From NCBI RefSeq assembly GCF_024810105.1, contig NZ_JANUDX010000003.1:1-64000 (forward strand): a stretch of 64,000 nucleotides of DNA, read 5' to 3'. The position numbers and the translations under genes were made by a program. This document shows positions 2,863 through 58,318 of this stretch, piece after piece (position 1 is the stretch's first letter; each line of letters opens with the position of its first letter). Under the pieces are notes generated by a model. That model was not told the origin of the DNA and did not search any database. It saw nothing but the letters and a program-made list of their open reading frames with translations. This DNA is from Stenotrophomonas sp. BIGb0135. Lineage in GTDB: Bacteria > Pseudomonadota > Gammaproteobacteria > Xanthomonadales > Xanthomonadaceae.

Positions 2863-3090
2863 GCGCCAAAGGCGCGGGGTTTAGGGGGAATGCGCGGAAC
2901 GCGGTCGCCACAGGCGGTCGCGTTGGGCGCGCCAACGGCGCGGGGTTTAGGTGGAATGCGCGGAACGCGGTCGCCGCAGGCGGTCGCGTTGGGCGCGCCA
3001 AAGGCGCGGGGTTTAGGTGGAATGCGCGGAACGCGGTCGCCACAGGCGGTCGCGTTGGGCGCGCCAAGGGCGCGGGGTTTAGGTGGAATG
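2859..3090. repeat. 66-bp tandem repeat array
   Basis: Three full units of exactly 66 bp (starting at 2890, 2956 and 3022) plus a partial unit before and the first bases of a fourth at 3088. Units differ by only a few bases, such as CACAGG versus CGCAGG. Because 66 is a multiple of three the array stays open in frame on both strands, with no translation signal I trust. It has no CRISPR-like repeat/spacer structure. It fills most of the 466-bp gap between the acyl-CoA dehydrogenase and HNH genes. Confidence 0.9.
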
Positions 3091-19291: not shown

Positions 19292-19341
19292 TTGGTCGGG
19301 ACGGCCGGATTTGAACCGACGACCCTCTGCCCCCCAGGCAG
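19292..19341. repeat. attL core: 50-bp copy of the tRNA-Pro 3' end
   Basis: Identical over 50 bp to 58241-58290. It contains the tRNA-Pro 3' half from the anticodon stem-loop (TGGGGGG) to CCA, on the minus strand. The 5' half is missing here, so this is not a working tRNA. Confidence 0.93.
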
Positions 19342-20177: not shown

Positions 20178-20966
20178 TCACCTCTCGAATCGGAAACCCG
20201 AACACCACAAATACAGAAGCCCACTAGACGATGATGGGACAATTACCGTCAGATCTTGCCCGCTTCTCAGGGACAGGGGCATCGATGACTTCTGGCTGGG
20301 GGGGACGAAGTCCCGCCATGATCCATCCGCAACTACAGGGCCGTCAGTGCTGCTTACGTATGCATTGGCGTTGCAAAGGTTCAGGTACTGGAGAAGAACC
20401 GCCGATCTTGTGACCGGTGCACGAGTATCGACAGAGACACTCACCGCCGAGGTTGGGCGAGAGTTGAGTATGAGGAAATCGGGGCTGCTGATGTTCTCCA
20501 CATATTCAAACGTCCCACTCTGAGGAGAGTGGTCAAACTTGAAGATAGCCCCCGCAGAATTGGTCCTGAAACTGCCGATGTACCGCCGGGAGGTGTCGCC
20601 GGTCTTTGCGCGCGCGGTGCCGCTGTAGGGGGCGGCGGGAGCGGTGGTCACCGTCTCCACGCCCACCGTGCTGCCGCTGACGGTCAGGTAGATGTGATAC
20701 CAGGTATTGGCGGCAAGGGTCGGCGTCAGCGTGACCGCCGAGGCCAACTCTGCGATGCGCTTCGGTCCAGGCACATAGGCGGCGCCGGAGGTGACCTGTA
20801 CCTGCGTGCCGGATACCCAGACCAGCTTCAGGCCATCGATGTGGCCCTTGGGCTGGACCAGCGGCGCGCGGCCGTCGGCGCCGGCGGCGGTTCGGAACAT
20901 GAGCTGATCGTCATCGGTCGGCGTGATGGCGGGGAACGAGGGATCGGCGTACTTGACGTTGGCCAT
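20178..20966 (-). CDS. Tail fibre protein, paralogue 1
   Basis: A 262-residue beta-rich protein with low-complexity Ser/Thr stretches. It shares the layout of its neighbour at 20977-21717: an opening segment with 'VTSGAAYVPGPKRI' versus 'VTPGMCYVPGTGRV', then NTWYHIYL versus NTFYHLYAY, 'TTAPAAPYSGTARAKTGD' versus 'TTAPDAPYLGTARCKTGD', and a divergent C-terminus ending in GFRFER or GYEFDR. It is probably part of the receptor-binding apparatus. The diverging C-terminus suggests different targets. Confidence 0.7.
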   Translation of the reverse strand: MANVKYADPSFPAITPTDDDQLMFRTAAGADGRAPLVQPKGHIDGLKLVWVSGTQVQVTSGAAYVPGPKRIAELASAVTLTPTLAANTWYHIYLTVSGSTVGVETVTTAPAAPYSGTARAKTGDTSRRYIGSFRTNSAGAIFKFDHSPQSGTFEYVENISSPDFLILNSRPTSAVSVSVDTRAPVTRSAVLLQYLNLCNANAYVSSTDGPVVADGSWRDFVPPSQKSSMPLSLRSGQDLTVIVPSSSSGLLYLWCSGFRFER

Positions 20967-20976
20967 GGTGGGGGTC

Positions 20977-21717
20977 CTATCGATCGAACTCGTAGCCGAT
21001 CAGGTTGATGGTCACAGAGCCGGTCAGGATCGCGATGATCCCGCCGAGGATGTCGGTGGAGCTGAGGACGCAGTTGAAGCTGCGGTCGGCACTGAGGGTC
21101 ACGTCCAGCACCGGCGATGAGCCGGGGATGGCGACGTACTGGTAATTGGTAGCCGACGCCGCGCCCAGCTCCGAACGCGAGACGTACAGCGTCCGGCTGG
21201 ATGGGTTCAGCACCTGGATGATCGCGCGGGTGGCGGTCACCGGAAGCACCGCCGAGAGGTCGATGTTCGTGCTGCTGGTGGCCGTGAACAGCGCCAGCAA
21301 GCCCAGCGGGATGCTGCCGGCCGCGGTGGCCGCGTCGAGCATCACCCGGTTGCCCATCTCCGCCGGCCGCGTGTGCTTGCCCGGGCGCAGGACGCTGCTG
21401 GCGTTGGTGCGGCCGGAGATCAGGTAGCGGCGCGTCGGGTCGCCCGTCTTGCAGCGCGCCGTGCCCAGGTACGGGGCATCCGGCGCGGTGGTGCTGGCCT
21501 CCAGGCCCATCAGGCCGCCGCCGGCGTCGTAGGCGTACAGGTGGTAGAACGTGTTGGCTGTCGGGCTCACCAGCGTCACCGAGGCCGTGCCGTCGCTCAG
21601 CACGCGGCCAGTGCCTGGCACGTAGCACATGCCGGGCGTCACCCGGACCGTCAGGCCGTTGAGGTCGACCGATGCCTGCAGCCCGCGGATGATCGAAATG
21701 GAGGGGTCGAGGGCCAT
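20977..21717 (-). CDS. Tail fibre protein, paralogue 2
   Basis: A 246-residue homologue of the preceding fibre protein, with the same N-terminal PGT/YVPG module and TARCKTGD-RRYL segment. Its C-terminal half is different and beta-rich. The start codon overlaps the stop of the 21717-22646 gene. The tandem pair is best explained by duplication of a receptor-binding gene. Confidence 0.7.
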   Translation of the reverse strand: MALDPSISIIRGLQASVDLNGLTVRVTPGMCYVPGTGRVLSDGTASVTLVSPTANTFYHLYAYDAGGGLMGLEASTTAPDAPYLGTARCKTGDPTRRYLISGRTNASSVLRPGKHTRPAEMGNRVMLDAATAAGSIPLGLLALFTATSSTNIDLSAVLPVTATRAIIQVLNPSSRTLYVSRSELGAASATNYQYVAIPGSSPVLDVTLSADRSFNCVLSSTDILGGIIAILTGSVTINLIGYEFDR

Positions 21718-22646
21718 CAGTTCGCGATGCTCCGGTCAGAGTAGCGGCGCCAGCGCGTGCCGCTCGAAATGGTGGCGTCGTACCAGCACGGCTCGCGGCC
21801 GCCGGCCAGGTCGGTGATCAGCACCTCTTGCCCGTCCAATACGCCGGCCAGTGCGTTGGCCTGGGAGAGCGTCAGCACCTGCGGCGCGGCGGCAACGACG
21901 ATCGTCGTCATGCTGGGCCAGCCGGGCGGGATGATCGGGCTGTTGGCGATCAGCGGGTTCCCGGCCTGGTCGGTGAGCTGGTTGCCGAGCTGGTCGGTGA
22001 GCAGCGGGTACTCGATCAGGAAGAACCGCGAGCCCGGGCCATGGATCTGCTGCCAGGCCGCGTCCATGCGGGCGTACGGGTTCCCATCGATCGGAGCCTC
22101 TGGGAGGCCTGTCGCGCCCGGCGCCGACACGATCGGGTTGCGGGGGTCGGCATTGTTCACGGTGACGCCGGTGCCGGCCACGATCGACTGGACCGCGCTG
22201 TCGGCCTTGGCCAGCGAGGCAATAACCGCCGGATCAAGGCCCAGCGTGGCCACGCCGTTGGCACCCACCGCCTTCGAAATCTGGCCAGCCGCAACCGCAA
22301 TAGCGTCTGCCAGCGGATACCACCCTTTGCCGCCGGCGGGGCCAGTGCCATACACGTAGGTGTTGCCCGGCGCCGAGGTGTCGCCCTTGAGCGTCAGCGT
22401 GACCACGCCATTGGCCGGGATACCCTGCACTTCGACCGACAGCGGGCCATTGATCTGCAGGTTGGCGCCCTGAGCCTGCTGGATCTGCTGAACCAACTGT
22501 TCGAGCGCCTGGATCTGCGCCTCCAGCTCCGCACCGGACTGCTGCGAGGCCAGCTTCATGAAGAAGTTGAGCCACGCCTGGGTCAGATACCCGCCTTGGC
22601 CCGCAATCGGCTCCGAGATTCGCGGAACGTCATTCGGGCTTGCCAT
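21717..22646 (-). CDS. Tail fibre / virion structural protein with coiled coil
   Basis: A 309-residue protein. The N-terminus has a virion-attachment-like segment (SEPIAGQGGYLTQAWLNFFM), a Gln-rich coiled coil (about residues 38-60, ALEQLVQQIQQAQ), then repeats typical of fibre shafts (VATLGLDPAVIASLAKADSA) and a C-terminal domain ending in a tryptophan-rich strand. Start at 22646 overlaps the upstream stop (ATGA); a longer start at 22676 is less likely. Confidence 0.65.
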   Translation of the reverse strand: MASPNDVPRISEPIAGQGGYLTQAWLNFFMKLASQQSGAELEAQIQALEQLVQQIQQAQGANLQINGPLSVEVQGIPANGVVTLTLKGDTSAPGNTYVYGTGPAGGKGWYPLADAIAVAAGQISKAVGANGVATLGLDPAVIASLAKADSAVQSIVAGTGVTVNNADPRNPIVSAPGATGLPEAPIDGNPYARMDAAWQQIHGPGSRFFLIEYPLLTDQLGNQLTDQAGNPLIANSPIIPPGWPSMTTIVVAAAPQVLTLSQANALAGVLDGQEVLITDLAGGREPCWYDATISSGTRWRRYSDRSIAN

Positions 22647-23431
22647 CAGGAGGCGACCTTGCCGATGGCGCGCCACATGACCGGCAGCGGGGTGCCGAGG
22701 TTGTAGTTCGAGTTGACCGCATCCACTCCCAGATCCCAGTTGATCGTGGCCCCAGTCAGCGTCACCGACGATGCGCCGATGTCACCGATATAGCCGGCGG
22801 TGACCACGCCCGATCCCTTGTTGATCGTCAGCTGCAGGTTGGGGACGGCGATGTACGGCGTGGGGAACGTGATCGTGCCCGTCGCCAGCTGTGCACCACT
22901 GGCCGGGATGCTGACCACGCCCCACTGGTCCAGGATGTTGTTCACCTTCACGGAGTTGTCGGTGGTCACGACGGGCAACGTCGGAATGGTCGGCTGGGCC
23001 TGCAGGACGTAGCCGCCGCCGCTCGCCACCGGGATTTTCCCATCCGATCCGGTCGGGTCGGGGAGCTGGAAGAAGCTGCCCCAGAGCAGGTTGGAACCGT
23101 CGTTGGTCAGCCACTGCCCGCTGGCGAGCGTGGGGATCGTCAGGCCGGCGGCGGTCCCGCTGTCCACGTCACGGGTCCAGATCACCACACCTGCGGAATC
23201 GCGCAGGCGAACGGAGTACGCCCCGTCCAGCCAGACGTTGGTGTTCACCCGGCCGGAGCTGTCCAGAGGCGCCGGATTGGGGTTCAGCACCGTCTTGCCC
23301 GAATCACTCCAGGTGTTCTTGGGGGTGGTGGTCCCGATCTCGTAGAAGGCCAGGCTGCCGCCCGCGCAGGGCTGCAGGCCAAGGAGATCCATCAGGACCG
23401 GGGCCGGGTTGTAGAAGCGATACGCTGCCAT
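22646..23431 (-). CDS. Tailspike/fibre protein with podovirus head-binding domain
   Basis: A 261-residue protein. Its first 90 residues ('YNPAPVLMDLLGLQPCAGGS' ... 'LDSSGRVNTNVWLDGAYSVRLRD') follow the pattern of podovirus tailspike N-terminal domains that dock to the tail hub. The rest is a beta-rich trimeric-fibre-like region. Start at 23431 is backed by GGAG 6 nt upstream. An intrinsic terminator lies just before it, so it may have its own promoter or depend on antitermination. Confidence 0.75.
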   Translation of the reverse strand: MAAYRFYNPAPVLMDLLGLQPCAGGSLAFYEIGTTTPKNTWSDSGKTVLNPNPAPLDSSGRVNTNVWLDGAYSVRLRDSAGVVIWTRDVDSGTAAGLTIPTLASGQWLTNDGSNLLWGSFFQLPDPTGSDGKIPVASGGGYVLQAQPTIPTLPVVTTDNSVKVNNILDQWGVVSIPASGAQLATGTITFPTPYIAVPNLQLTINKGSGVVTAGYIGDIGASSVTLTGATINWDLGVDAVNSNYNLGTPLPVMWRAIGKVAS

Positions 23432-23445
23432 GGGATCTCCGGGCA

Positions 23446-23469
23446 AAAAGAAAGCCGCTCAAGGCGGCT
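23446..23469 (-). terminator. Intrinsic terminator between ejection and fibre genes
   Basis: On the minus strand AGCCGC-CTTGA-GCGGCT is followed by TTTCTTTTTG. It would end leftward late transcripts after the ejection-protein gene unless Q-type antitermination applies. Confidence 0.8.
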
Positions 23470-27150: not shown

Positions 27151-27882
27151 TTAGCCCCAGCTCGACTTGCGAGCGTTGCCGCCCAGGAAATTGTCCATGT
27201 TGTTGCCGAAGCCCGTCATGCTGCCCTGGCCGCCGCCACCGCCGCCGAATCCGCTAAACATGCTGGACATGCCGCCGCCGCCACCTGCAGCCCCTGCATA
27301 GGTACTGGCCGCCGATGCCAAGGCATTGCCATAACCGGCCTGCGTCATCGGACCTGCAGCCGCGATCTGTGCGTTGGCCTGGCCCTTGATGCCCATGGCG
27401 TTGGCGAACTGGTTGCCGTAGCTCTGACCGAGCTGGCCCAGGTACTGCTGGGTGTTGGATCCGAGGTTGGTCAGCCCCATCAGCCGGTTGGTGTAGTTGC
27501 CGAGGTTCTGGCTGGCCAGTCCCGAGCTGAAGGCGATGCGGTCGGCATCAGCGCCACCCGAATACAGGCCGCCGCGCGCCGCAGCCCCCCGGTCCAGCCC
27601 CTGGATGCCCTGGTCGCGCGCATACAGGTAGTCCGGCGCGTTCTCGAAGCCGGAGTAGTCGCCGCGGTTGACGGCCTCCAGTTGGCTGAGCGCATTGGTG
27701 CCGGCGTCGGCGTAGGGCTGCGCGCCCTCCACCGCGTTGTTGTAGAGCGCCTGCTGCTGGTCCAGGGTCTGCTGCGCGGCGCTGGCTTGTGCCCGGCCTG
27801 CTTTCTTGGCGGCGGCACCCTGGCGGTTGGCCGAGTAGGCCATGCCGGCGCCGACGACTACTGCTGCGGTGATTGCGGCCAT
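27151..27882 (-). CDS. Ejection / DNA transfer protein, small (gp7-like)
   Basis: A 243-residue protein. The hydrophobic start (MAAITAAVVVGAGMAYSANR) leads into a helix and a segment DYLYARDQGIQGLDRGAAARGGLYSGG, a hallmark of podovirus DNA transfer proteins of the P22 gp7 / p32 type. It ends in a Gly-rich tail. Start at 27882 was chosen over the longer frame, which runs back through the acetyltransferase gene in another frame. Confidence 0.8.
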   Translation of the reverse strand: MAAITAAVVVGAGMAYSANRQGAAAKKAGRAQASAAQQTLDQQQALYNNAVEGAQPYADAGTNALSQLEAVNRGDYSGFENAPDYLYARDQGIQGLDRGAAARGGLYSGGADADRIAFSSGLASQNLGNYTNRLMGLTNLGSNTQQYLGQLGQSYGNQFANAMGIKGQANAQIAAAGPMTQAGYGNALASAASTYAGAAGGGGGMSSMFSGFGGGGGGQGSMTGFGNNMDNFLGGNARKSSWG

Positions 27883-27883
27883 G

Positions 27884-28333
27884 TCAGATGTCCTTGGTGT
27901 AGCTGACTTCGGAGCGGGAATAGCCCAGGCGCTCGTACAGCGCAGCGGCCTGCGGCGGGCTGTTGGGCATGTGCACCATCTGGATGCGGTCGGCACCGGC
28001 ATCGCGCAGCGGCTGCTCGATCGCCTGCAGGAGCGAGGCCGCCACATGCGAGCCGCGCGCCTTGGGGTCAACCCACCACACAACCTCGACGCCGAAGGTG
28101 GCGTGCCGGTTGAACAGGAACGGGGCCAGGAAGATTCCAACCATGCCGAGCAGCTCGCCCTCGTGCTCTGCGACCAGGAACACGTGGTTCTCGATCAGGT
28201 TCGAGGCCAGGTCGGCAACCGTCTCCTCGTCCATATCGCACCACTGGGCGTAATGCGTGGTCGGGTAGAAAGCTGCGGACATGCGGACGATCTCCGGCAC
28301 GTCGGCCAGAGTTGCTTTGCGAATGGTGGTCAT
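27884..28333 (-). CDS. Phage-encoded GNAT acetyltransferase
   Basis: A 149-residue GNAT protein: IRKATLADVPEIVRM at the N-terminus, the acetyl-CoA loop near WWVDPKARGSHVAASLLQA, and ALYERLGYSRSEVSYTKDI at the end. It is encoded within the virion operon, overlapping the oxygenase gene by 1 bp. In phages such enzymes may modify host or virion proteins; the target is unknown. Confidence 0.85.
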   Translation of the reverse strand: MTTIRKATLADVPEIVRMSAAFYPTTHYAQWCDMDEETVADLASNLIENHVFLVAEHEGELLGMVGIFLAPFLFNRHATFGVEVVWWVDPKARGSHVAASLLQAIEQPLRDAGADRIQMVHMPNSPPQAAALYERLGYSRSEVSYTKDI

Positions 28334-28881
28334 CAGCCCCTCGGGGTAAAGAAGGCCACCGCGATGAGGCGGCCGGATTCGTGGTCAGTGCCGAAGGCCT
28401 CGAACGGCCAGCGGCTGTGGAACAGCGCCGATTCGTAGATCAGCAGCCGGCCCAGCTTCATTTCGGCCAGGCCAACCTGGTCCCACTTGCTGGCGTCGTC
28501 CCAGTCGTGGCGGACCTGTTCGAACAGCTCCATGTCGCCCTGTTCGATGCGGCTGGCACCGGTGGCCTTGTGCTGCCAGAAGGCAGTGCCGCCCTCGCCC
28601 TCGCTCAGGTAGAGCACCGCGGCGTGCGTGCCCCACCCCATGTCCGAATGGATCGAGGCATTGGGCAGTTCCTGGTTGAAATTGAGCCGGTAGCCCATGC
28701 CAAGCATCTCGACCGGGCCGCACTCGGCCTCAATCGCCTCCTGCAGGCCAGGCACCGGCGTCAGGCAGACGCGCTTGTAGACCTCGCCGTCGTAGCCCTT
28801 CCAGTCCACGTATGGCGCGCACAGCGCTGCCGCCCGGAGGCCTTGAGCGTCCGGGATCGCATCATCTACAACGATCATCAA
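28333..28881 (-). CDS. 2OG-Fe(II) oxygenase-like protein (DUF6445-type)
   Basis: A 182-residue protein with the iron triad pattern His78-x-Asp80 (IHSDMGWGTHAAVLYLSEG) and distal His155 (LIYESALFHSRWP), followed by Arg171 (GRLIAVAFF), a candidate 2-oxoglutarate ligand. This fits the double-stranded beta-helix dioxygenases, close to DUF6445. It is directly linked to the acetyltransferase (1-bp overlap) and the tail-hub genes. Its substrate, whether protein, sugar or nucleotide, is unknown. Confidence 0.8.
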   Translation of the reverse strand: MMIVVDDAIPDAQGLRAAALCAPYVDWKGYDGEVYKRVCLTPVPGLQEAIEAECGPVEMLGMGYRLNFNQELPNASIHSDMGWGTHAAVLYLSEGEGGTAFWQHKATGASRIEQGDMELFEQVRHDWDDASKWDQVGLAEMKLGRLLIYESALFHSRWPFEAFGTDHESGRLIAVAFFTPRG

Positions 28882-29105
28882 TCCTCCAGAGGTTCCGCCG
28901 TAACCACAGCCCCGAGCAGGTCGCGCTTGCGCGGGGACGACACCTTGATGTCAAACACCCACTGGCGACCGACCCCCATGCGCATCAGCTTTACCCGCTG
29001 CTGGTACTGGCCGATCTGGCCAATGGAGCGGCGCTTCCAGTTGCTCCAGTTGCGGCCGCCGTCCTTGCTGTAGCGCACTTCCACGAAGTGGTCGGTGTCG
29101 GCCAT
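28878..29105 (-). CDS. Separate C-terminal domain of the tail-hub protein
   Basis: A 75-residue protein: VEVRYSKDGGRNWSNWKRRS, IGQIGQYQQRV, MRMGVGRQWVFDIKVSSP and KRDLLGA. I know this pattern as the extreme C-terminus of gp10-like packaged-DNA stabilisation proteins ('SDDGGRTWS--R-IG--GEY--R--W-RLG--R-WVFE--VSDP'). Here it is a separate gene starting 1 bp after the hub gene stop. See the hub entry for the likely splitting event. Confidence 0.7.
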   Translation of the reverse strand: MADTDHFVEVRYSKDGGRNWSNWKRRSIGQIGQYQQRVKLMRMGVGRQWVFDIKVSSPRKRDLLGAVVTAEPLED

Positions 29106-29106
29106 G

Positions 29107-31557
29107 TCACAGCGTCCAGGCGATCGCGCCGATGGAACCAGCGCTGGTGAAAGAGGGCTGCACATTGGCCAGTTGCACCGTCGTGCCAGATACCTTGAAG
29201 AGCATCACCGGGGGCGCGGCGGGCGTGGCATTGCCGATCCTGACCACCGCCATGTAGTCGCCTGACATCGCCGAATCACTCGGACTGAAGCCAGTGGCCG
29301 GAATCAGGCTCGGGTACACGACCGCCGTGCCCAGGACTCCCTCATTCACCGGATAGGCGGCGATGCGGCGGTCTGTCGGTGAGCCCAAGGTGTAGACGAA
29401 CTTGCCGTCAGCGCTGAAATGCGCGCCGCGCCCAGACAGCAGCGTGCCCGTGGAGACGACCAGCGCGCTGGCACCGGTGGTGGAGCGCACCTTCAGCGTG
29501 TTGTTGCTCCACTCGGCGAGGAACCGACCGTCCGGCGACCAGCCGAAACCCGTAGGCGACTGCGCGTTCGGCGTGCCGCCGCCGTAGATGAACGCCCCAA
29601 GCACTGAGGTCGTCTTGTTGAACTCGTAGATCCGGCAGCCGAGATTCGGAGCGGTGGCAGTCTGCGACACCACGATGCGAGAGCCGTTGGGGCTGAAGGT
29701 CACCGACTCGCAGAAGGTGCCCAGCACCGCCGTCGACTTCTCGTTCCAGACCCCAGCCTCCAGCTTGAGCACCCGGAGGGTCCCCGCGGCGGCGCCAGTG
29801 CCAGTGACCAGCGCCAGGTGCAGCCCGTCCGGGCTGAAGTGGCTGCAGCGCACCGACTGCGCGGGGACGAAGCTGATGCTGGCCGATTCCGCGAACGTGC
29901 CGGTATCGGGGTTGTATTTGCACAGGACGCCGAAGGGCGTTGCGGTGAGGCCCACGTATGCGTAGCCGGCGTTAGGCGACACAGAGAACGCGGCCTCGAT
30001 GCTGGGCACCCTGTTGGTGATTGGCGCCAAGGGCACCAGCGATTCGTAGCTCCCGGCATACAGCATCTCCGGGATTGCCAGCGCCAGCACACCCGAGCGC
30101 GACAGGATGCTGTACCTGCCCTCGGTCCAGTTGAGGTTTGCGTCGTACACCCGCACGGTGAAGTTCGACGTGCCGACAGCAGTGGGAGTGCCGGTGATCG
30201 CGCCAGCTGAGCTGAGGGCAAGGCCTGCAGGCAGCGAGCCCTCGGTGATCGAGAAGGCGTAGGGTGCCGTTCCACCGACCGCGCCGAAGCTGAAGGCGGG
30301 ATAGGCCAAGCCGACCAGCGCGGCCGGCGGGGTGCCGGTCAGCGACACAGAAGTCGGGAACGGGGTAGCCACGGTGGCCGGACCTTGGCCGGGATCGAAG
30401 ATCAGCTCGGCGAACGGGATACCGACCTGGCTCTGGTTATCCGCCAGCACCGGCGACACGCGTCGGGAGATGAACTCGTCGTCGCCCTCCAGCAGGTAGT
30501 CCCAGTCGATCTCCCACAGGCGGCCGCTCTGGAAATCACCGCCGTACCAGGTACGCCCCCACTTGACCATATGCGACAGCCGCCACCGGTCAAGCCCGAA
30601 GGACTCCCGGCGCGTCCAGAGGCGCGAGACCACGTCATAGCCCCACGTGTGCCCATCCGGGAAGGTCAGGTAGTAGACCTTGAATCCCTGGTCCTCCCAG
30701 GTGAAGGCGAAGGCTTCGGACCAGTTCTTCCCGACGAACGAGCGCGCCATCGGCCCGGTCGAGATCGGCGTGGCCGAGTAGCCATCCATCCGATACACGA
30801 TTCCGTCGTCACCCAGCCAAAACAGGGTGTTGTCCAGCTTGGCGATGCTGTGCCGGGACGCGCAACCGCGGGTGATGGTCTGCCGGCGGTTCTGGAACGT
30901 CCCGGTGTTGGCTCCGGAGTTGTAGAAGAACTCGATCGTGGTCTGGTTGAACACCACGACCTCGAACTGGCTCACGGCCAGGCCGACGATACGGTCCGGC
31001 GAAGCCTCGGACTCGTAGCGGTCAAGCGTGTTGTAGTCGGTCGCATCGGACAGGTTCGAATGGAACCAGAACCGGCCCTGCGGCTCGACGCCCAGCAGGT
31101 AGGAGTCCAGGTAGTCGGACGAAATCGACCCCGGGTAGCCCTCGTCGGTGATCTTGGCGAAGGTGCCGGCGCTGGTGTCGTAGACGTACCCCCCGCCCCC
31201 CTGCCCGTTCTCCACCAGCAACTGGTTGCCGGTCTTGAACTGGTTGTGCGTCATGGTCACCCGGCCAACGCCGGGGATCGTGCCCAGCGGGCTGATCGAG
31301 CCGTTCGGGTTGATGCGGCAAAGCGTCTGCCCGGACACCACGAACCGAGCGCCCTCGCAGTCGTGCATGCCCCGGATCGGTCCGGAACCCACCTGCTTGT
31401 ATGGCTTCAGGCCAGGCGGGGTCTTGAGGTACTTCGGCGTGCGCGTGCCCGCAATCTCGGCCATCACCGGCAGGTAGTTCACGGTGTCCTGGCACGACCA
31501 CGGCAGGGTGTCGTCGGCGTAGTAGCCGCCGATGAGGTCAACGGGGGTGGCGCTCAT
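29107..31557 (-). CDS. Tail hub (gp10-like) protein fused to an Ig-like domain and a beta-propeller
   Basis: An 816-residue protein. Residues 1-392 match podovirus packaged-DNA stabilisation/hub proteins (P22 gp10-like: DTVNYLPVMAE, LKTPPGL, 'DRIVGLAVSQFEVVVFNQTT', FWLGDDGIVYRMDGY). Residues 402-473 form a bacterial Ig-like/cadherin-type domain (SLTGTPPAALVGLAYPAFSF; LSSAGAITGTPTAVG). Residues ~495-816 show WD40-like blades (CSHFSPDGLHLALVTGTG; GWSPDGRFLAEWS; HFSADGKFVYTLGS). The normal hub C-terminus is missing and is found in the next gene. The added part is probably displayed on the virion surface. Confidence 0.8.
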   Translation of the reverse strand: MSATPVDLIGGYYADDTLPWSCQDTVNYLPVMAEIAGTRTPKYLKTPPGLKPYKQVGSGPIRGMHDCEGARFVVSGQTLCRINPNGSISPLGTIPGVGRVTMTHNQFKTGNQLLVENGQGGGGYVYDTSAGTFAKITDEGYPGSISSDYLDSYLLGVEPQGRFWFHSNLSDATDYNTLDRYESEASPDRIVGLAVSQFEVVVFNQTTIEFFYNSGANTGTFQNRRQTITRGCASRHSIAKLDNTLFWLGDDGIVYRMDGYSATPISTGPMARSFVGKNWSEAFAFTWEDQGFKVYYLTFPDGHTWGYDVVSRLWTRRESFGLDRWRLSHMVKWGRTWYGGDFQSGRLWEIDWDYLLEGDDEFISRRVSPVLADNQSQVGIPFAELIFDPGQGPATVATPFPTSVSLTGTPPAALVGLAYPAFSFGAVGGTAPYAFSITEGSLPAGLALSSAGAITGTPTAVGTSNFTVRVYDANLNWTEGRYSILSRSGVLALAIPEMLYAGSYESLVPLAPITNRVPSIEAAFSVSPNAGYAYVGLTATPFGVLCKYNPDTGTFAESASISFVPAQSVRCSHFSPDGLHLALVTGTGAAAGTLRVLKLEAGVWNEKSTAVLGTFCESVTFSPNGSRIVVSQTATAPNLGCRIYEFNKTTSVLGAFIYGGGTPNAQSPTGFGWSPDGRFLAEWSNNTLKVRSTTGASALVVSTGTLLSGRGAHFSADGKFVYTLGSPTDRRIAAYPVNEGVLGTAVVYPSLIPATGFSPSDSAMSGDYMAVVRIGNATPAAPPVMLFKVSGTTVQLANVQPSFTSAGSIGAIAWTL

Positions 31558-31970
31558 CAGCGGTAGAACCCCTCATACCAGGCGCCCCACGGCTGGCCCT
31601 GACCGGCTGGGAGATCCGGGTAGGTGACGCGCGAGTAGTCAGCAGAAGCCACCTGCGCAGCCATCGCCGCCATCCCCTCACGTGCACCTTGGATCACGTC
31701 AGGGTCCAGCGGCTTCCCGTAATTCGGACGAAGCCGCGTGGCGAGCAGGTAGGCAATACCCTGCTCGTTCTCAAAGGGGCAAGGCATCTCGTCATCAGGC
31801 GATGAAACGTTGGACCAACCGATGCTGATGCCCTCGGCTTCCATCGAGGTCATCATCAGGTTGAGAGCCCGTATCGCGTCCTGGCTATCCTCCGCCTCCG
31901 GGGCCTCTCCAGCGTCCAGCACGCGCAGCAGCAGCAGGGAATCGCGGATGACCTCGCCGACCTTGCTCAT
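31557..31970 (-). CDS. Packaged DNA stabilisation / head completion protein (P22 gp4-like)
   Basis: A 137-residue helical protein starting MSKVGEVIRDSLLLLRVLDA, with LNLMMTSMEAEG and PFENEQGIAYLLATRLRP. This is the pattern of P22 gp4-type tail accessory factors, which plug the portal after packaging and start tail assembly. The start follows the 76-residue gene stop with 1-bp overlap. Confidence 0.8.
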   Translation of the reverse strand: MSKVGEVIRDSLLLLRVLDAGEAPEAEDSQDAIRALNLMMTSMEAEGISIGWSNVSSPDDEMPCPFENEQGIAYLLATRLRPNYGKPLDPDVIQGAREGMAAMAAQVASADYSRVTYPDLPAGQGQPWGAWYEGFYR

Positions 31971-32250: not shown

Positions 32251-33459
32251 TTACTGAGTGACGCGGACCGCGTGGTCCGCACGGATGGCTGCCGGCAGTG
32301 CGAACAGCACGTCGATACGGGTGTTCTCCATATCGTTCTTGCCGTCGCCGAAGGTCATCACACGGACGCTGATGCCCTTGGTGGTCGCGGTGTAGCCCTC
32401 GCAGGACGCCAGCACCGGAAGCGGGGCGAATGCCGAGGCGAAAGCGTTCTTGTGGAACACCAGGTTCTGCAGCGCGCTCGAGGACGCGGTGCCGAAGATG
32501 GTGATCGCAGCTGCCGCCGCGGGCGAGGCGTTCACGGTGCCGATCACAGTGGAGCTCGTCGGGGTGATCGCCGGGAAGATCGACACGTTGCCCGCGCCAC
32601 CGGCGTAGTCGGCCGTCACCACGAACTGGCGCAGCTTGCCGGTGCTGACGCCGGTGATCGGGTGGACCGAGAACACCCCGGCGATGGTGAAGGTCGAACC
32701 TCGGGTGATCGCGCCGGTGCCGGTGACCACGGCCAGCGTGTTGCCCGTCTGGCCCGCCCCGCCGACCGCATAGCCGGTGCCCGCGCCGTTGGTGTGGACC
32801 GGCAGCGAGAGCTGCTCGAAGAAGTCCAGGTTGGCGAAGCGGCCGACCGCGTTGTCGCTGAACTCGCCGCGGATCTCCTTACCGTCATGGAACAGCGCGG
32901 AGTTGGCCTCGGCCAGCGCATCGCTCGCATCCAGCGAGAAGTGCGAATAGCGCATGTCGTTCGGGGCCAGGAAGCGCGACAGCGAGGAGTCCGCGGAGCG
33001 CCAGGTGGTGCGGGTGTTGGGGACGGTGCCCCAGGTGCCGACCACGTTGGGGGTCTTGCGGTACATCTCGGCCAGCAGGATGGAGTTCACCTTGCTGGAC
33101 AGCGAGTTCATGGCCGGGCGCAGGAAGCGCTCCTTGAAGTCGCTGAGCTCGAGCTTCTTCTCCTTGGCCGTAAAGGTCAGGGCGACGTGCTCCTGCTGGT
33201 CCACGGTCAGGTTGACGGAGGTCTCATTGGTGGACGGCGCATTGCCGCCGCCGGCGAAGACGGAGCCGCTGAAGGTGACCGGCACCGGCGGGACCATGAC
33301 GCGCACGGTATCGCCCTTCTTGTAGCCATTGACCTCTTCGCCGAACTCGCGCTCGCGGGAGGTGTTGATGTTCGGGACGACGGTGTTTTCCTCCACCAGC
33401 ATCGCCGCTGCTTCGCGGGCGATCATCTGGTGGGTCAGTGCCTGGTTGATGTTTGCCAT
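32251..33459 (-). CDS. Major capsid (coat) protein, P22 gp5 family
   Basis: A 402-residue protein. It opens MANINQALTHQMIAREAAAM with LVEENTVVPNIN, and has GDTVRVMVPPVPVTFSG and LTFTAKEKKLELSDFKERFL, the N-arm and E-loop regions of P22-type coat proteins (HK97 fold). An Ala/Gly/Thr-rich insertion near residues 215-330 is in the place of the P22 telokin/I-domain. Flanked by scaffold upstream and a terminator downstream. Confidence 0.9.
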   Translation of the reverse strand: MANINQALTHQMIAREAAAMLVEENTVVPNINTSREREFGEEVNGYKKGDTVRVMVPPVPVTFSGSVFAGGGNAPSTNETSVNLTVDQQEHVALTFTAKEKKLELSDFKERFLRPAMNSLSSKVNSILLAEMYRKTPNVVGTWGTVPNTRTTWRSADSSLSRFLAPNDMRYSHFSLDASDALAEANSALFHDGKEIRGEFSDNAVGRFANLDFFEQLSLPVHTNGAGTGYAVGGAGQTGNTLAVVTGTGAITRGSTFTIAGVFSVHPITGVSTGKLRQFVVTADYAGGAGNVSIFPAITPTSSTVIGTVNASPAAAAAITIFGTASSSALQNLVFHKNAFASAFAPLPVLASCEGYTATTKGISVRVMTFGDGKNDMENTRIDVLFALPAAIRADHAVRVTQ

Positions 33460-34383: not shown

Positions 34384-36405
34384 TCAGGCGGGATAGCCGC
34401 CTGTTTGTTCGGGCACAAAAAAGCCGCCCTGAGGCGGCTGGGTGATCGGCATTGCCGGTGGCTGTGACGGTGGCTGCGGAGGTCCGCCGAGAAGCGCCAA
34501 GCCGGCTGCGTTCTCGATCGCCTGCCCGACTGCCTGCTCTCCATAGAGCTGGGCCTGTGCATCGGACCTCTTTGCATCTGCCTCGGCCTTCTGGGCGTCG
34601 GCCATGGCCTTGGGATCGGGCTGCTGGGGCGGTGGCGGCTCCTCGCCATCCTTCGGCTGCAGCAAGCCCTCCCCGACCAGGATCTTGCGGAATGCCGCGT
34701 CCACTTCCTCGCTGCCAGGCAGGTCCATGTTGTTGATTGCCGTGTATGCCATCAGCGAGGCGATCGGCGGCGGCAAGCCCGGGCCCATCTGGCCGAGCAT
34801 GGTGGTGAAGGCGTCGACCGCCTCCATCCTCTGCGTGGCGAAGTTGGGGCCAACGGTAATAGCCACGTCGTACTTTCCCTTGCCGATGTCGTTCAGGACG
34901 ATCTTCTGGCCTGTGGCCGGGTCGATCACCTCTTGGTACAGCCGCTTCCACTTCTCGCCGCCATCGGGGCCAAGCACGCGAACCACGCGCGGGGTGTCGT
35001 ACACGCGCGGGATCATGTCCACCAGCACCCGGTAGGTGTGCCGGATGCCATAGGCCAGATTGTCGATGTAGTTGAAGGTCGCCGTGGCGCCCTGCTGCTG
35101 CCTGGCCAGGATGCCCTTACCGCTCGTCTCGTTGCCCTGAGCGCCGAGGCTCGCGTTGTGGATGCCCGTGTTGGCCTTGATGTCCTCATTGTCGAGCGCG
35201 CCAAGCTGCAGCAGCGCCGCAGGGATCTCTGCCTGGCCGGCGCGCGTCGGGATCTCTGTTGCCTCGTCGTTGATCGGCAGGTAGGGGTAATCCTCGGAGT
35301 TGGCGTTGCGCCAGAACCGCTCCAGCCCCTTGATCGACCTCAGCTTGACGATGAACGGGGCCTTCGGAGCCTTGGCCACCGCCTCGATCGCCGCGGTGCG
35401 GTGCACGTTGTGCAGGCGCTGCTGGTCCTTATTTGGCCGGACCATGCCGAACCAGTAGTCCTCGCCGTCGATGCTGGTGATGTTCCCCCAGATCGGGATC
35501 AGCGGGATGAACTTGGACGGGAAGTCATACTCCTCGCCGAGCCACTCGTGCCCGTTGGTGAAGCGCATCTTCACGTCGTGCGTGTCGATCTCGCGCCGAC
35601 GGATGATCTGCACGCCCTCCCCGGCCAGGATCGCCTCGAGAGCGTCCGGCGACTGGTCCATGCCCTGCCGCTTCGCTTCCTTGCCCAAGTCCTCGACCGA
35701 CACCGTGGCGCCATTGGAAAGCTGCCAGATCTCCGCCTTCCGCGGCTTCTTCCACCAGTAGGCTGCGATCCGAACCTGGCCCTTGTCGCGCCAGCTCGTG
35801 CATCTGTTGTCGTCTTCCCAGTCCGTCAGGCTGGCGTCAGGCCAGCGGCGCTCATGCTCTTCCTTCGAGATGAGTTCTTCTTCGAAGGCGTACTCTGCGT
35901 CTGACCGATCCAGCTCAACCGAAGGCCCCCACTTGATGGCAAACGGGTTGCGCACCGGCTTGATGAAGATGTCCTGGTCGAAATCGTCCTGGTTGGCGTA
36001 CTCGGTGCAGATCCGCCACACGCCGAAGCCGCCCTTGACCGCGAAGTCATAGGCGATGTCATAGGCCTGGTCGGCGTTGCTGACCGCCTCGATGTTTCGG
36101 CAGATGCCCTGCATCAGCTCGGCCAGGCCCTTGTCGCCCTCCTCGGTGCCGCGAACCTTGCCCTGCGGCCGGTTCTGGCGCATCTCGTTGATGACCTGGC
36201 GGACGTGTGCGGCCAGCTTGGGGAACTCGTAGGTCGGGCGATCGCCGCGGCGCGCCTTCAGCTTTTGATCCCACTGAGCGCCCGGAACGGTCACGAACTT
36301 CACGTCGTCACTGGCCTGGTCGTACAGCTCGCGGCAGGCTTCGGACGCAAGATCCCTGCGCTTCAGCATCTCAGCCAGCGCATCGTCCCGCTTCTTGTCA
36401 GCCAT
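34384..36405 (-). CDS. Portal protein, P22 gp1 family
   Basis: A 673-residue protein close to the P22 portal in length (725). Landmarks: ELYDQASDDVKFVTVPGAQWD, YEFPKLAAHVRQVINEMRQN, LRSIKGLERFWRNANSEDYP and NASLGAQGNETSGKGILARQ. It forms the dodecameric DNA gate of the head. The C-terminal 110 residues are Gln/Ala/Pro-rich. The last codons contain an intrinsic terminator (34416-34439). Confidence 0.93.
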   Translation of the reverse strand: MADKKRDDALAEMLKRRDLASEACRELYDQASDDVKFVTVPGAQWDQKLKARRGDRPTYEFPKLAAHVRQVINEMRQNRPQGKVRGTEEGDKGLAELMQGICRNIEAVSNADQAYDIAYDFAVKGGFGVWRICTEYANQDDFDQDIFIKPVRNPFAIKWGPSVELDRSDAEYAFEEELISKEEHERRWPDASLTDWEDDNRCTSWRDKGQVRIAAYWWKKPRKAEIWQLSNGATVSVEDLGKEAKRQGMDQSPDALEAILAGEGVQIIRRREIDTHDVKMRFTNGHEWLGEEYDFPSKFIPLIPIWGNITSIDGEDYWFGMVRPNKDQQRLHNVHRTAAIEAVAKAPKAPFIVKLRSIKGLERFWRNANSEDYPYLPINDEATEIPTRAGQAEIPAALLQLGALDNEDIKANTGIHNASLGAQGNETSGKGILARQQQGATATFNYIDNLAYGIRHTYRVLVDMIPRVYDTPRVVRVLGPDGGEKWKRLYQEVIDPATGQKIVLNDIGKGKYDVAITVGPNFATQRMEAVDAFTTMLGQMGPGLPPPIASLMAYTAINNMDLPGSEEVDAAFRKILVGEGLLQPKDGEEPPPPQQPDPKAMADAQKAEADAKRSDAQAQLYGEQAVGQAIENAAGLALLGGPPQPPSQPPAMPITQPPQGGFFVPEQTGGYPA
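34416..34439 (-). terminator. Intrinsic terminator inside the portal gene 3' end
   Basis: On the minus strand AGCCGCC-TCAG-GGCGGCT is followed by TTTTTT. It lies inside the portal coding region, about 30 bp before its stop codon, in the stretch encoding QPPQGGFFVPEQ. Transcripts that stop here would lack the portal stop codon. Confidence 0.8.
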
Positions 36406-57062: not shown

Positions 57063-58160
57063 ATGTCACCACGGAAGCGCAGCGCCGGCCGTCAGGGCTG
57101 GCCGGACAACCTCTACCCGAACAAGGGCGGGTTCAAATACCGCCACCCGACCACCCGGCGCGAGACGTTCATGGGCCGGGACCAGGCCAAGGCGTTCGCC
57201 GCGGCCAAGAAGCTCAACGCCATGCTGCTGCCGGGCAACGACCTGGTGGACAAGGTGATCGGCTCGCGCGAGACGGTGGCCGACGCGATCGCGGTGTTCC
57301 GCCGCGACGACGTGCCCGGGCGCAACTGGGCCCCGAAGACGGCCGAGGTCTACGAAAGCGTCATCCGCCGCACCGAGGCCAGCATCGGCAGCCGGTCGGT
57401 CGAGGACGTGACGGTGAAGGACTGCGCCGAGTTCATCCGCGGGGTGACCCAGTCCGACCGCGCGCGTCAGCAGTTCCGGCTGGTGTTGGGCTGGATCATG
57501 GCGTGCGCCGTGCAGGAGGGCTGGATCGACACCAACCCGGTGCTGGCCACCCGCCGGTTCCAGCACGAGCGAAAGCGCGCGCGACTGACCCGGGAGGTCT
57601 ATGCGGCGATCTGGGAGAAGGCCGAGCCGTGGCTGCGCCTGGCGATGGACCTGTCGCTGGTCACCCTGCTGCGCCGCGAGGACGTGGTGTCGTTGAAGTT
57701 CGCCGACGTGCGCGACGGCTACCTGTGGGTGGTGCCGCAGAAGACCGAGGGCAGCACGCTGGTGAAGTTGAAGATCCGGGTCGGCGAACAGCTGGCCGGC
57801 CTGCTGGCTCAGGCGCGCGACACGGTGCTGTCGCCGTTCGTGGTGCATCGCCTGCCTGACCGCGCACGGCCCTCGGACAAGCGCGCATCGGCGCGGCAGC
57901 ACCACACGCAGGTGATGCCGGAGCAGCTCACCCGCGCATTCCAGGACGCGCGCGAAGCGGCCGGCATCAGCGGCGACAACCCGCCGAGCTTCCACGAGAT
58001 CCGCAGCCTGGGCGGCGCGCTATTGAGCGAATCGGGCTGGGCGATCGAGCAGGTCCAGGGCCTGATGGGCCACTCGTCCACGTCGATGACCGAGCACTAT
58101 CTGGAAGGCCACGACACGCCCTGGCAGGAAGTGCAGACCGGCAGCGTGCTGGTTCGATAG
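57063..58160 (+). CDS. int: Tyrosine integrase
   Basis: A 365-residue lambda-type recombinase. The N-terminal arm-binding part (GFKYRHPTTRRETFMGRDQA) and a core-binding domain precede the catalytic domain: Arg205 (TLLRREDVVSLKF), Lys227 (VPQKTEGST), His311 and Arg314 (HEIRSLGG), His337 (LMGHSSTSMTEHYLEG) and nucleophile Tyr346. It recombines attP with the tRNA-Pro 3' end. It ends 80 bp from attR, and its stop overlaps the first arm-type repeat. Confidence 0.96.
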   Translation: MSPRKRSAGRQGWPDNLYPNKGGFKYRHPTTRRETFMGRDQAKAFAAAKKLNAMLLPGNDLVDKVIGSRETVADAIAVFRRDDVPGRNWAPKTAEVYESVIRRTEASIGSRSVEDVTVKDCAEFIRGVTQSDRARQQFRLVLGWIMACAVQEGWIDTNPVLATRRFQHERKRARLTREVYAAIWEKAEPWLRLAMDLSLVTLLRREDVVSLKFADVRDGYLWVVPQKTEGSTLVKLKIRVGEQLAGLLAQARDTVLSPFVVHRLPDRARPSDKRASARQHHTQVMPEQLTRAFQDAREAAGISGDNPPSFHEIRSLGGALLSESGWAIEQVQGLMGHSSTSMTEHYLEGHDTPWQEVQTGSVLVR

Positions 58161-58240: not shown

Positions 58241-58290
58241 TTGGTCGGGACGGCCGGATTTGAACCGACGACCCTCTGCCCCCCAGGCAG
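58241..58290. repeat. attR core (50 bp)
   Basis: Identical to 19292-19341. Here the core joins the host 5' half of tRNA-Pro and rebuilds a complete gene. Confidence 0.93.
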
Positions 58291-58318
58291 ATGCGCTACC
58301 AGGCTGCGCTACGCCCCG
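58242..58318 (-). tRNA. tRNA-Pro (GGG anticodon)
   Basis: A 77-nt tRNA with encoded CCA. The acceptor stem CGGGGCG pairs with CGTCCCG; the anticodon loop contains GGG in CTGGGGGGC; the T arm has GGTTCAAATCC. Intact: 5' half from the host, 3' half from the phage attR core. It reads CCC codons. Confidence 0.96.

Follow-up and report, generated by a model that had tools for sequence, protein, structure and literature searches.

The window, by which we mean the whole 64,000-nucleotide stretch analysed here, contains a short-tailed phage within a bacterial genome. Its head-tail module lies on the reverse strand. Upstream of the hub are the genes for the portal protein (34384-36405; PHROG 156, E=3e-144), a P22-type major head protein (32251-33459; PHROG 283, 6.6e-90) and, directly before the hub, a gp4-type head-tail adaptor (31557-31970; PF11650, 1.3e-5; PHROG 637, 1.2e-25); a gp7-type DNA ejection protein follows (27151-27855; PHROG 598, 1.8e-34; start codon chosen by us). 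This gene order in the window (portal, scaffold, coat, gp4, hub, ejection protein) is that of PHROG 578-type modules. Small unassigned genes are interspersed among some members of the module.

The hub itself is encoded by two genes. An open reading frame of 816 amino acids (29107-31557, reverse strand; stop TGA at 29109-29107) is followed, after the stop and a single C, by the ATG of a 75-amino-acid gene in the +1 frame (28878-29105, reverse strand; ATG at 29105), leaving a gap of 1 nt at the junction TGA-C-ATG (29103-29109, reverse strand). Residues 1-394 of the larger protein matched positions 1-401 of the 486 in the PHROG 578 profile ("head closure Hc3"; E=2.2e-104), and the small protein matched positions 408-471 of the same profile (E=1.3e-10), the C-terminal part. 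We refer to residues 1-392 of the larger protein (30382-31557, reverse strand), a hub of the P22 gp10 type lacking the C-terminal end, as hubN, and to the small protein as hubC. Together they comprise 467 amino acids (392 + 75), the length of the unsplit relatives L071 and L072 when read from the match start. The best solved sequence matches of both pieces were the hubs of the cyanophages Pam1 (PDB 7eeq_1; hub part over 42-320, E=4.4e-14; small protein over 367-409, 1.4e-5) and Pan3 (9vyg_M; 38-310, 2.9e-17; small protein over 372-413), which are single chains of 442 and 446 residues, whereas the window hub is split. In Pfam, the hub part scored 24.9 bits against PF11134, marginally under the curated cut-off of 25 bits, and the scan placed the 75-residue protein in no family above cut-off.

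The gene for the P22 gp10 / Sf6 gp8 hub (PHROG 578; PF11134; PDB 8eap, 8u10, 7sg7) likewise comes after those for portal, scaffold, coat and gp4, and hubN plus hubC cover nearly the whole PHROG 578 profile. However, the 472 residues of P22 gp10 form one chain, whereas the window divides the hub between two genes, the first of which carries a 424-residue cassette. Because canonical gp10 is one continuous polypeptide and the window has two genes in different frames, we file the window hub, on its profile matches, as a split variant of the P22 gp10-type family. The small protein matched 15 of 50,697 phage records at E<=1e-3, all at less than 60% identity. Judged by the hub match positions, none of these 15 has room for a window-sized cassette between the halves, and the two examined each annotate one hub gene.

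The insert between the hub pieces is 424 codons long. Its first part, residues 393-485 (30103-30381, reverse strand), consists of a linker and an Ig-like (He_PIG) domain, with PF05345 at residues 421-483 above the Pfam cut-off (E=3e-11). The second part, from about residue 524 to 816 (29110-29988, reverse strand), gave WD40/PD40 matches below the Pfam cut-off. An AlphaFold2 model of the cassette segment (mean pLDDT 79, from a 7-row alignment) had 1,330 Foldseek matches in the PDB at E<=0.001; judged by title, the 50 listed are chiefly propeller chains of the WD40 type together with a few lactonases, and their model-normalised TM-scores span 0.32-0.53, at rmsd values of 3.9-19 Å. The model therefore makes the beta-propeller class clear and leaves the exact fold indistinct. 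An earlier note on this DNA had read the large gene as a gp10-like hub up to residue 392 followed by Ig-like and propeller domains, the small gene 1 bp downstream as the missing hub C-terminus and the insertion as about 420 codons long; each of these readings agrees with the matches and counts given above.

Arrangement of the hub in related loci

A survey of 122 loci with hubN, including duplicates and the window's own phage (L008), showed that 50 are split at the same loop as the window. In 41 of these hubC is the next gene, a count that includes L008 as well as L022 and L068, each identical to another locus. The remaining nine carry cargo: in eight, whole genes separate the halves, and L031 has its cargo fused to hubC. 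Single chains in normal order were found at 58 loci, 38 of them with a short loop, and five loci (L105-L108, L110) are circularly permuted. A scan of genome contigs gave 5 loci. HubC was found near hubN in 113 of the 122 loci, and in the other nine the sequence stops 0-998 nt beyond hubN, such that no related hub naturally lacking the C-terminal domain was encountered in the survey.

Because the adjacent layout recurs in 41 of the 122 loci, own phage and duplicates included, chance is excluded and a one-off disruption is ruled out. The earlier proposal that an insertion had cut the hub holds in part: the inserted segment occupies a site at which the two profile matches are just 12-24 nt apart in the closer unsplit relatives (L070-L072, L090-L092, L096-L098, L104, L109, L111). 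It was not, however, one insertion in one gene, but a widespread and selected split whose cassette changes as a whole between close relatives.

In the permuted loci hubC is N-terminal in the hubN-bearing open reading frame (HMM E 5e-9 to 7e-16), and in the complete examples (L107, L108, L110) an Ig-plus-repeat cassette then follows at the C-terminus. Read from their sequences, the permutants represent an alternative route to an unbroken hub whose cassette sits on a free end. In a structural model of L108, the hubC part had a pLDDT of about 80 and the strand order places the cut after the propeller. P22 gp10 residues 2-406 align with the equivalent part of this model (Z 31.6, rmsd 2.6 Å, 371 residues); all 50 listed rows of the VIA-align comparison begin at model residue 70 or later, so that the packing of hubC lies outside it.

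Two further nozzle proteins resemble this organisation. As described in the cited parts of PMC6702177, T7 gp12 has a propeller plus a platform, as in the window-type hub, and its authors suggest a possible circular permutation with three platform strands N-terminal; in that account it is one chain without a split or swappable cassette, and its site is a possible counterpart of ours. In SU10, according to the portion of PMC9509320 drawn on here, the N-terminal and C-terminal stretches of the chain together make up the platform domain, which attaches to the adaptor, and the nozzle protein gp17 comprises the platform, a propeller and four Ig-like nozzle domains. SU10 gp17 is unsplit in that description, with its Ig-like domains between propeller blades 2 and 3 and not at the C-terminal loop, and its alignment to the L108 model (Z 20.9 over 361 residues) scores no higher than the unrelated propellers listed. 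No split or permuted hub of this type was described in the open-access titles or abstract openings searched.

Cassette exchange and a proposed mode of assembly

Exchange was assessed in 35 split loci, using pairs with hubN at least 78% alike in DNA (identity times coverage). The 50 close hub pairs, which are not independent of each other, had intervening DNA that aligned over at most 10% in 40 cases, over half or more in seven and over an intermediate fraction in three, and the exchange seen was of whole domains. The cassette is exchanged as one unit and the two hub pieces are retained, and in those 40 pairs it displays the block-wise variability expected of a receptor-binding tail protein. 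The variety of cassettes is bounded: compared whole, 31 of 44 fell in one cluster; with the first 120 residues removed, the variable parts of 37 cassettes formed 14 clusters, two of which hold 22 of the 37. He_PIG was present in 24 of 51 scanned open reading frames, alongside several propeller families and, in one open reading frame each, SPRY and LamG (all E<=0.001). In L031 a GTA_TIM protein (1.1e-106; PHROG 4271, tail protein) is fused to hubC, and in L040 the two halves are separated by a tail fibre gene (PHROG 4176). At the other extreme, hubN of L050, L051, L053 and L112 bears just 13-34 extra residues, so the split can persist with no large cassette on hubN.

These observations are well accommodated by a model, which we consider probable, of a naturally split hub that reassembles and displays interchangeable modules, probably for host recognition. 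The hub would be made as two chains from adjacent genes, hubN (392 residues) with its C-terminal cassette and hubC (75 residues). HubC would fold onto hubN in trans and complete the gp4-docking domain (the "platform" of the T7/SU10 nozzle proteins), with each hub subunit whole again once hubC joins. With the cut placed at the loop, the cassette would hang from a single free C-terminal tether and could be of any size or fold. Taken on its sequence variability, the cassette is most probably a swappable module that would be exposed on the particle and contact the host surface.

The hub might instead reassemble with a cassette that serves as a decoration or as an attachment point for the phage's own fibres, an alternative that we regard as possible but rather doubtful. 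Ig domains are common decorations, and the window phage has other candidate fibre genes downstream. A precedent for a dock exists in T7 gp12, whose fibre dock lies between propeller and platform on the outer surface, as far as the cited text describes it (PMC6702177). Yet a dock should co-vary with one partner and keep its fold, and the cassettes range from propeller to lectin-like folds; moreover, a tail enzyme (L031) or a fibre gene (L040) can occupy the slot.

Selection on hubC and the stop/start junction

The median omega of hubC was 0.28 (23 loci; 200 of 253 pairs), compared with 0.20 for hubN (241 of 253 pairs). HubC is under purifying selection, and on this ground we reject a decaying remnant. 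That finding weighs against a reading in which an old insertion removed the hub C-terminus, leaving a truncated hub that works alone beside a small gene that is a remnant or unrelated. The hub part by itself scores well against the family, and the association of the two pieces is something we infer; nevertheless, a remnant would decay, hubC accompanies hubN throughout the survey up to the loci that end shortly after it, and the circular permutants retain hubC within the same chain. We consider the truncated hub improbable.

The history of the split was examined on a "quick" hubN tree that included 81 of the 118 rows of sufficient length (from 122 loci); 31 of the 42 distant loci L113-L154 were left out, as were six presumed duplicates (L022, L068, L080, L092, L097, L103), of which L068 and L022 are the two compared with their partners and found identical. 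Split versus not split required at least six changes on this tree. A single origin, with the 45 split rows together against 32 others, was rejected (p-AU 0.0011). Since the tree is a quick one and hub genes recombine, any number of origins read from it is provisional.

At the junction, hubC starts between -8 and +3 nt from the hubN stop in 36 of 38 split loci. A script located a start codon near the profile start in all 38 (ATG in 36, GTG in 2), and a ribosome-site-like motif was seen in seven. Judged from these sequences, the close junctions fit coupled re-initiation, and the two genes are probably translationally coupled. A frameshift or read-through joining the genes into one long chain with an internal cassette would be an alternative; the small reading frame of the window does continue upstream of its ATG, overlapping the hub open reading frame, and L095 and L099 are single chains that carry an in-frame insertion of about 150 residues. 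However, a programmed frameshift would call for a single offset and for a site conserved across loci, yet hubC is offset from hubN in all three frames (22, 13 and 3 of 38) and the junction DNA differs from locus to locus. It is for this reason that we reject it, and the whole genes separating the halves in eight of the nine cargo-bearing loci, together with the cargo fused to hubC in L031, make such joining very unlikely. An assembly or sequencing artefact is essentially discounted, even though the genome is a 21-contig draft, because further genomes and numerous viral contigs show the same split, their small proteins sharing 24-85% identity with that of the window.

The hub loop as a candidate docking slot

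More broadly, we lean, with modest confidence, towards the view that, across a large group of short-tailed phages, the hub loop acts as a general slot for docking, to which host-contact modules of whatever fold could be attached with the hub kept intact; this would make the hub a direct, swappable receptor-binding platform, with natural split-protein complementation in the virion. The slot would be used in several topologies: in-frame insertion; a pair of coupled genes, the first bearing the cassette; circular permutation; cargo on the second gene; and fibre or glycosyltransferase-like genes in between. The second-gene form may be represented by PHROG 19101 (595 amino acids, unknown function), which is matched over its full length by L031 6632-8419 and whose positions 525-592 correspond to hubC (1.1e-27 for the window protein); there a GTA-type TIM barrel cargo is fused before hubC, whereas the window cargo is attached behind hubN.

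A core part of the virion that has to seal DNA under pressure is here divided between two genes at dozens of loci, and this division has been maintained. If the proposed reassembly is correct, this would be natural protein complementation in a virus particle, for which circular permutants of the same protein provide an evolutionary cross-check, and the interval between hubN and hubC is where host-recognition modules of uncultured phages could be sought. Present profiles hide the split: the hub end lies within PHROG 19101, and the 75-residue protein falls below Pfam cut-offs. Further downstream in the window phage, the genes at 20178-23446 are unassigned and could be its real receptor-binding proteins.

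The split hub and its relatives

The hub in the window belongs to the P22 gp10 family as a split variant that has a slot for swappable display modules. This arrangement is genuine, unusual and found repeatedly. An earlier note had claimed that the hub is cut in two, and profile comparison bears this out. Residues 1-394 of the 816-aa protein (29107-31557, minus strand) correspond to positions 1-401 of the PHROG 578 profile (head closure Hc3, P22 gp10 family), while the 75-aa protein (28878-29105, minus strand), whose gene starts one base past the stop of the larger gene, corresponds to positions 408-471. Two solved hub chains were matched by both proteins, in complementary stretches. The segment that the note had placed between the hub pieces comprises 424 codons that encode an Ig-like domain, recognised by Pfam, and a beta-propeller, recognised by a structural model and structure search. 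Hereafter the two hub parts are called hubN and hubC, and the module that follows hubN the cassette.

Relatives were collected from viral contigs (one list being the best 80 of 580), same-family genomes (12 of 297 with a match, own included) and phage records, and 122 loci were profile-scanned for hubN and hubC, counting the window's own locus and some duplicates. HubC was the next gene in 41 loci, and in nine the hub was split with cargo between the halves or fused to hubC. Unsplit hubs had at most 60 nt (38 loci), 114-228 nt (18 loci) or 468 nt in frame (L095 and L099) between the two matches, and five loci were circularly permuted, with hubC at the N-terminus of the hubN chain. A hubC match was missing in nine of the 122 loci, whose sequence ends 0-998 nt past hubN. 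In later draws, five genomes among 369 from the class and four among 91 from the genus had a match, own included; of three further loci examined, two are split and one is unsplit. One of these two split loci came from another bacterial family and, by reading of the sequence, carries a double lectin-like cassette. The split hub is a recurrent design.

Junctions were compared across the tree set's 38 loci with an adjacent split, the hubC start codon being picked by script. In 36 of them the distance between the hubN stop and the hubC start is -8 to +3 nt; in the others it is 24 nt (L084) and 104 nt (L089). Start codons are ATG in 36 and GTG in two, and a ribosome-site-like motif from our own pattern list was present at seven junctions. 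The simplest reading of these sequences is that hubC would be expressed by coupled termination and re-initiation. A programmed frameshift is unlikely because the hubN/hubC offsets span all three frames (22, 13 and 3 of 38). Median omega across 23 of these loci was 0.28 for hubC (200 of 253 pairs) and 0.20 for hubN (241 of 253), calculated with our own Nei-Gojobori script after excluding near-identical and near-saturated pairs.

A quick tree built on 81 hubN rows shows split and unsplit forms interleaved, with the split L100 sister to the unsplit L104 (support 99). At least six changes between split and not split are needed, gains not being distinguished from losses, and a single clade of all split rows is rejected (p-AU 0.0011). 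Recombination of hub genes may contribute to this alternation.

Cassettes and whole genes in the slot

Among 35 split loci, hubN similarity at the DNA level is at least 78% in 50 pairs, which are not independent of one another. The DNA between the hub pieces aligned over at most 10% in 40 of these pairs, over at least half in seven, and to an intermediate extent in three. L016/L033 are 94% alike in hubN and 95% in hubC, with 2% of the cassette covered; L017/L021, L019/L020 and L073/L074 are further examples. Judged from these sequence comparisons, the cassette is a unit exchanged as a block. L026/L027 (hubN 91% alike, hubC 73%) look like a case of joint transfer of cassette and hubC. The 1.5 kb upstream of the hub can lack blastn similarity even where the hubs themselves share up to 94% of their DNA sequence (L016/L033, L014/L020 and other pairs), so exchange between structural modules seems to extend to entire hub genes.

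Clustering of whole cassettes placed 31 of 44 in one group, with a common Ig domain accounting for at least part of the grouping. With the first 120 residues removed, 37 cassettes fell into 14 clusters, two of which hold 22; one of these two contains both split and permuted hubs. The cassette repertoire is bounded. At Pfam E<=0.001, He_PIG was found in 24 of 51 scanned ORFs; smaller numbers had several propeller families, sortilin or BNR repeats, DUF7483, SPRY and LamG. Elsewhere in the window's own genome (G000:C7:170492-174247), an open frame of 1857 codons contains six stretches 40-48% identical to the cassette Ig region.

Whole genes also occupy the slot. In L031, hubN plus about 150 residues is followed by a 595-aa protein ending in hubC; this protein is a GTA-type TIM barrel (1.1e-106) with a PHROG 4271 tail protein match and a full-length match to PHROG 19101. 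Two genes separate the halves in L040, one a PHROG 4176 tail fibre; a 236-aa gene does so in L112, and L102 has a 343-aa gene followed by a 281-aa protein with hubC at its end. In L050, L051 and L053, a gene of 209-212 aa lies between hubN and a protein in which hubC is fused to a small, proline-linked domain; the L050 copy of this gene resembles glycosyltransferase family 2 weakly, at scores under the Pfam cut-offs. The variability and folds of the cassettes, together with the presence of a tail enzyme or a fibre in the slot, lead us to infer that cassettes probably recognise hosts.

Permuted hubs and the position of the cut

In the permuted L105, L106, L107, L108 and L110, the hubC profile matches no further than the first 81 residues of the hubN-bearing frame (E 5e-9 to 7e-16). 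L105 and L106 are truncated at the contig end; the three complete loci have the order hubC, hubN, Ig-like domain, repeats (domains named by reading). The permutants form a single clade in the quick tree (support 100). In the L108 model, hubN superimposed on P22 gp10 residues 2-406 (Z 31.6, 371 residues, rmsd 2.6 Å); the hubC part was modelled at a pLDDT of about 80, and no structural aligner rows covered it.

In SU10 (PMC9509320), segments from both ends of the chain build the platform domain, which binds the adaptor. In T7 (PMC6702177), the N-terminus supplies three platform strands, and a fibre dock lies between propeller and platform on the outer surface. The L108 model has two long hubN strands after the propeller, and five strands make up hubC; all seven would belong to the platform. 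The cut would then fall between two platform strands, hubC would close the platform domain in trans, and the cassette would gain a free tether. An insert would need both its ends near each other, a constraint that a cassette on a free end would escape. That the cut serves to provide a free end is favoured because L095 and L099 tolerate small in-frame inserts and because permutation solves the same problem.

The surrounding prophage

The window carries a P22-like prophage. Its ends are probably the attachment sites represented by a 50-bp direct repeat (19292-19341 and 58241-58290), the second copy of which overlaps tRNA-Pro (ggg) at 58242-58318; an integrase gene lies at 57063-58160. Minus-strand structural genes run in the order terminase, portal, scaffold, coat, gp4-type adaptor, hub, small gene, DUF6445 gene, acetyltransferase and gp7-type ejection protein. 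The DUF6445/2OG-oxygenase-like gene (28333-28881, minus strand) and the GNAT acetyltransferase gene (27884-28333, minus strand) lie between hubC and the ejection genes. By eye, a similar gene lies 3′ of hubC in L030, L050 and L112, and a cupin-like gene lies 3′ of hubC in L031 and L051 and 3′ of the permuted hub in L108. Four function-unassigned genes after the ejection genes (20178-23446, minus strand) are candidate fibre or tip proteins, two of which (20178-20966 and 20977-21717) match PHROG 34307. At 2890-3087 (plus strand), an open frame contains a 66-bp unit (22 codons) three times in tandem, the copies being nearly identical.
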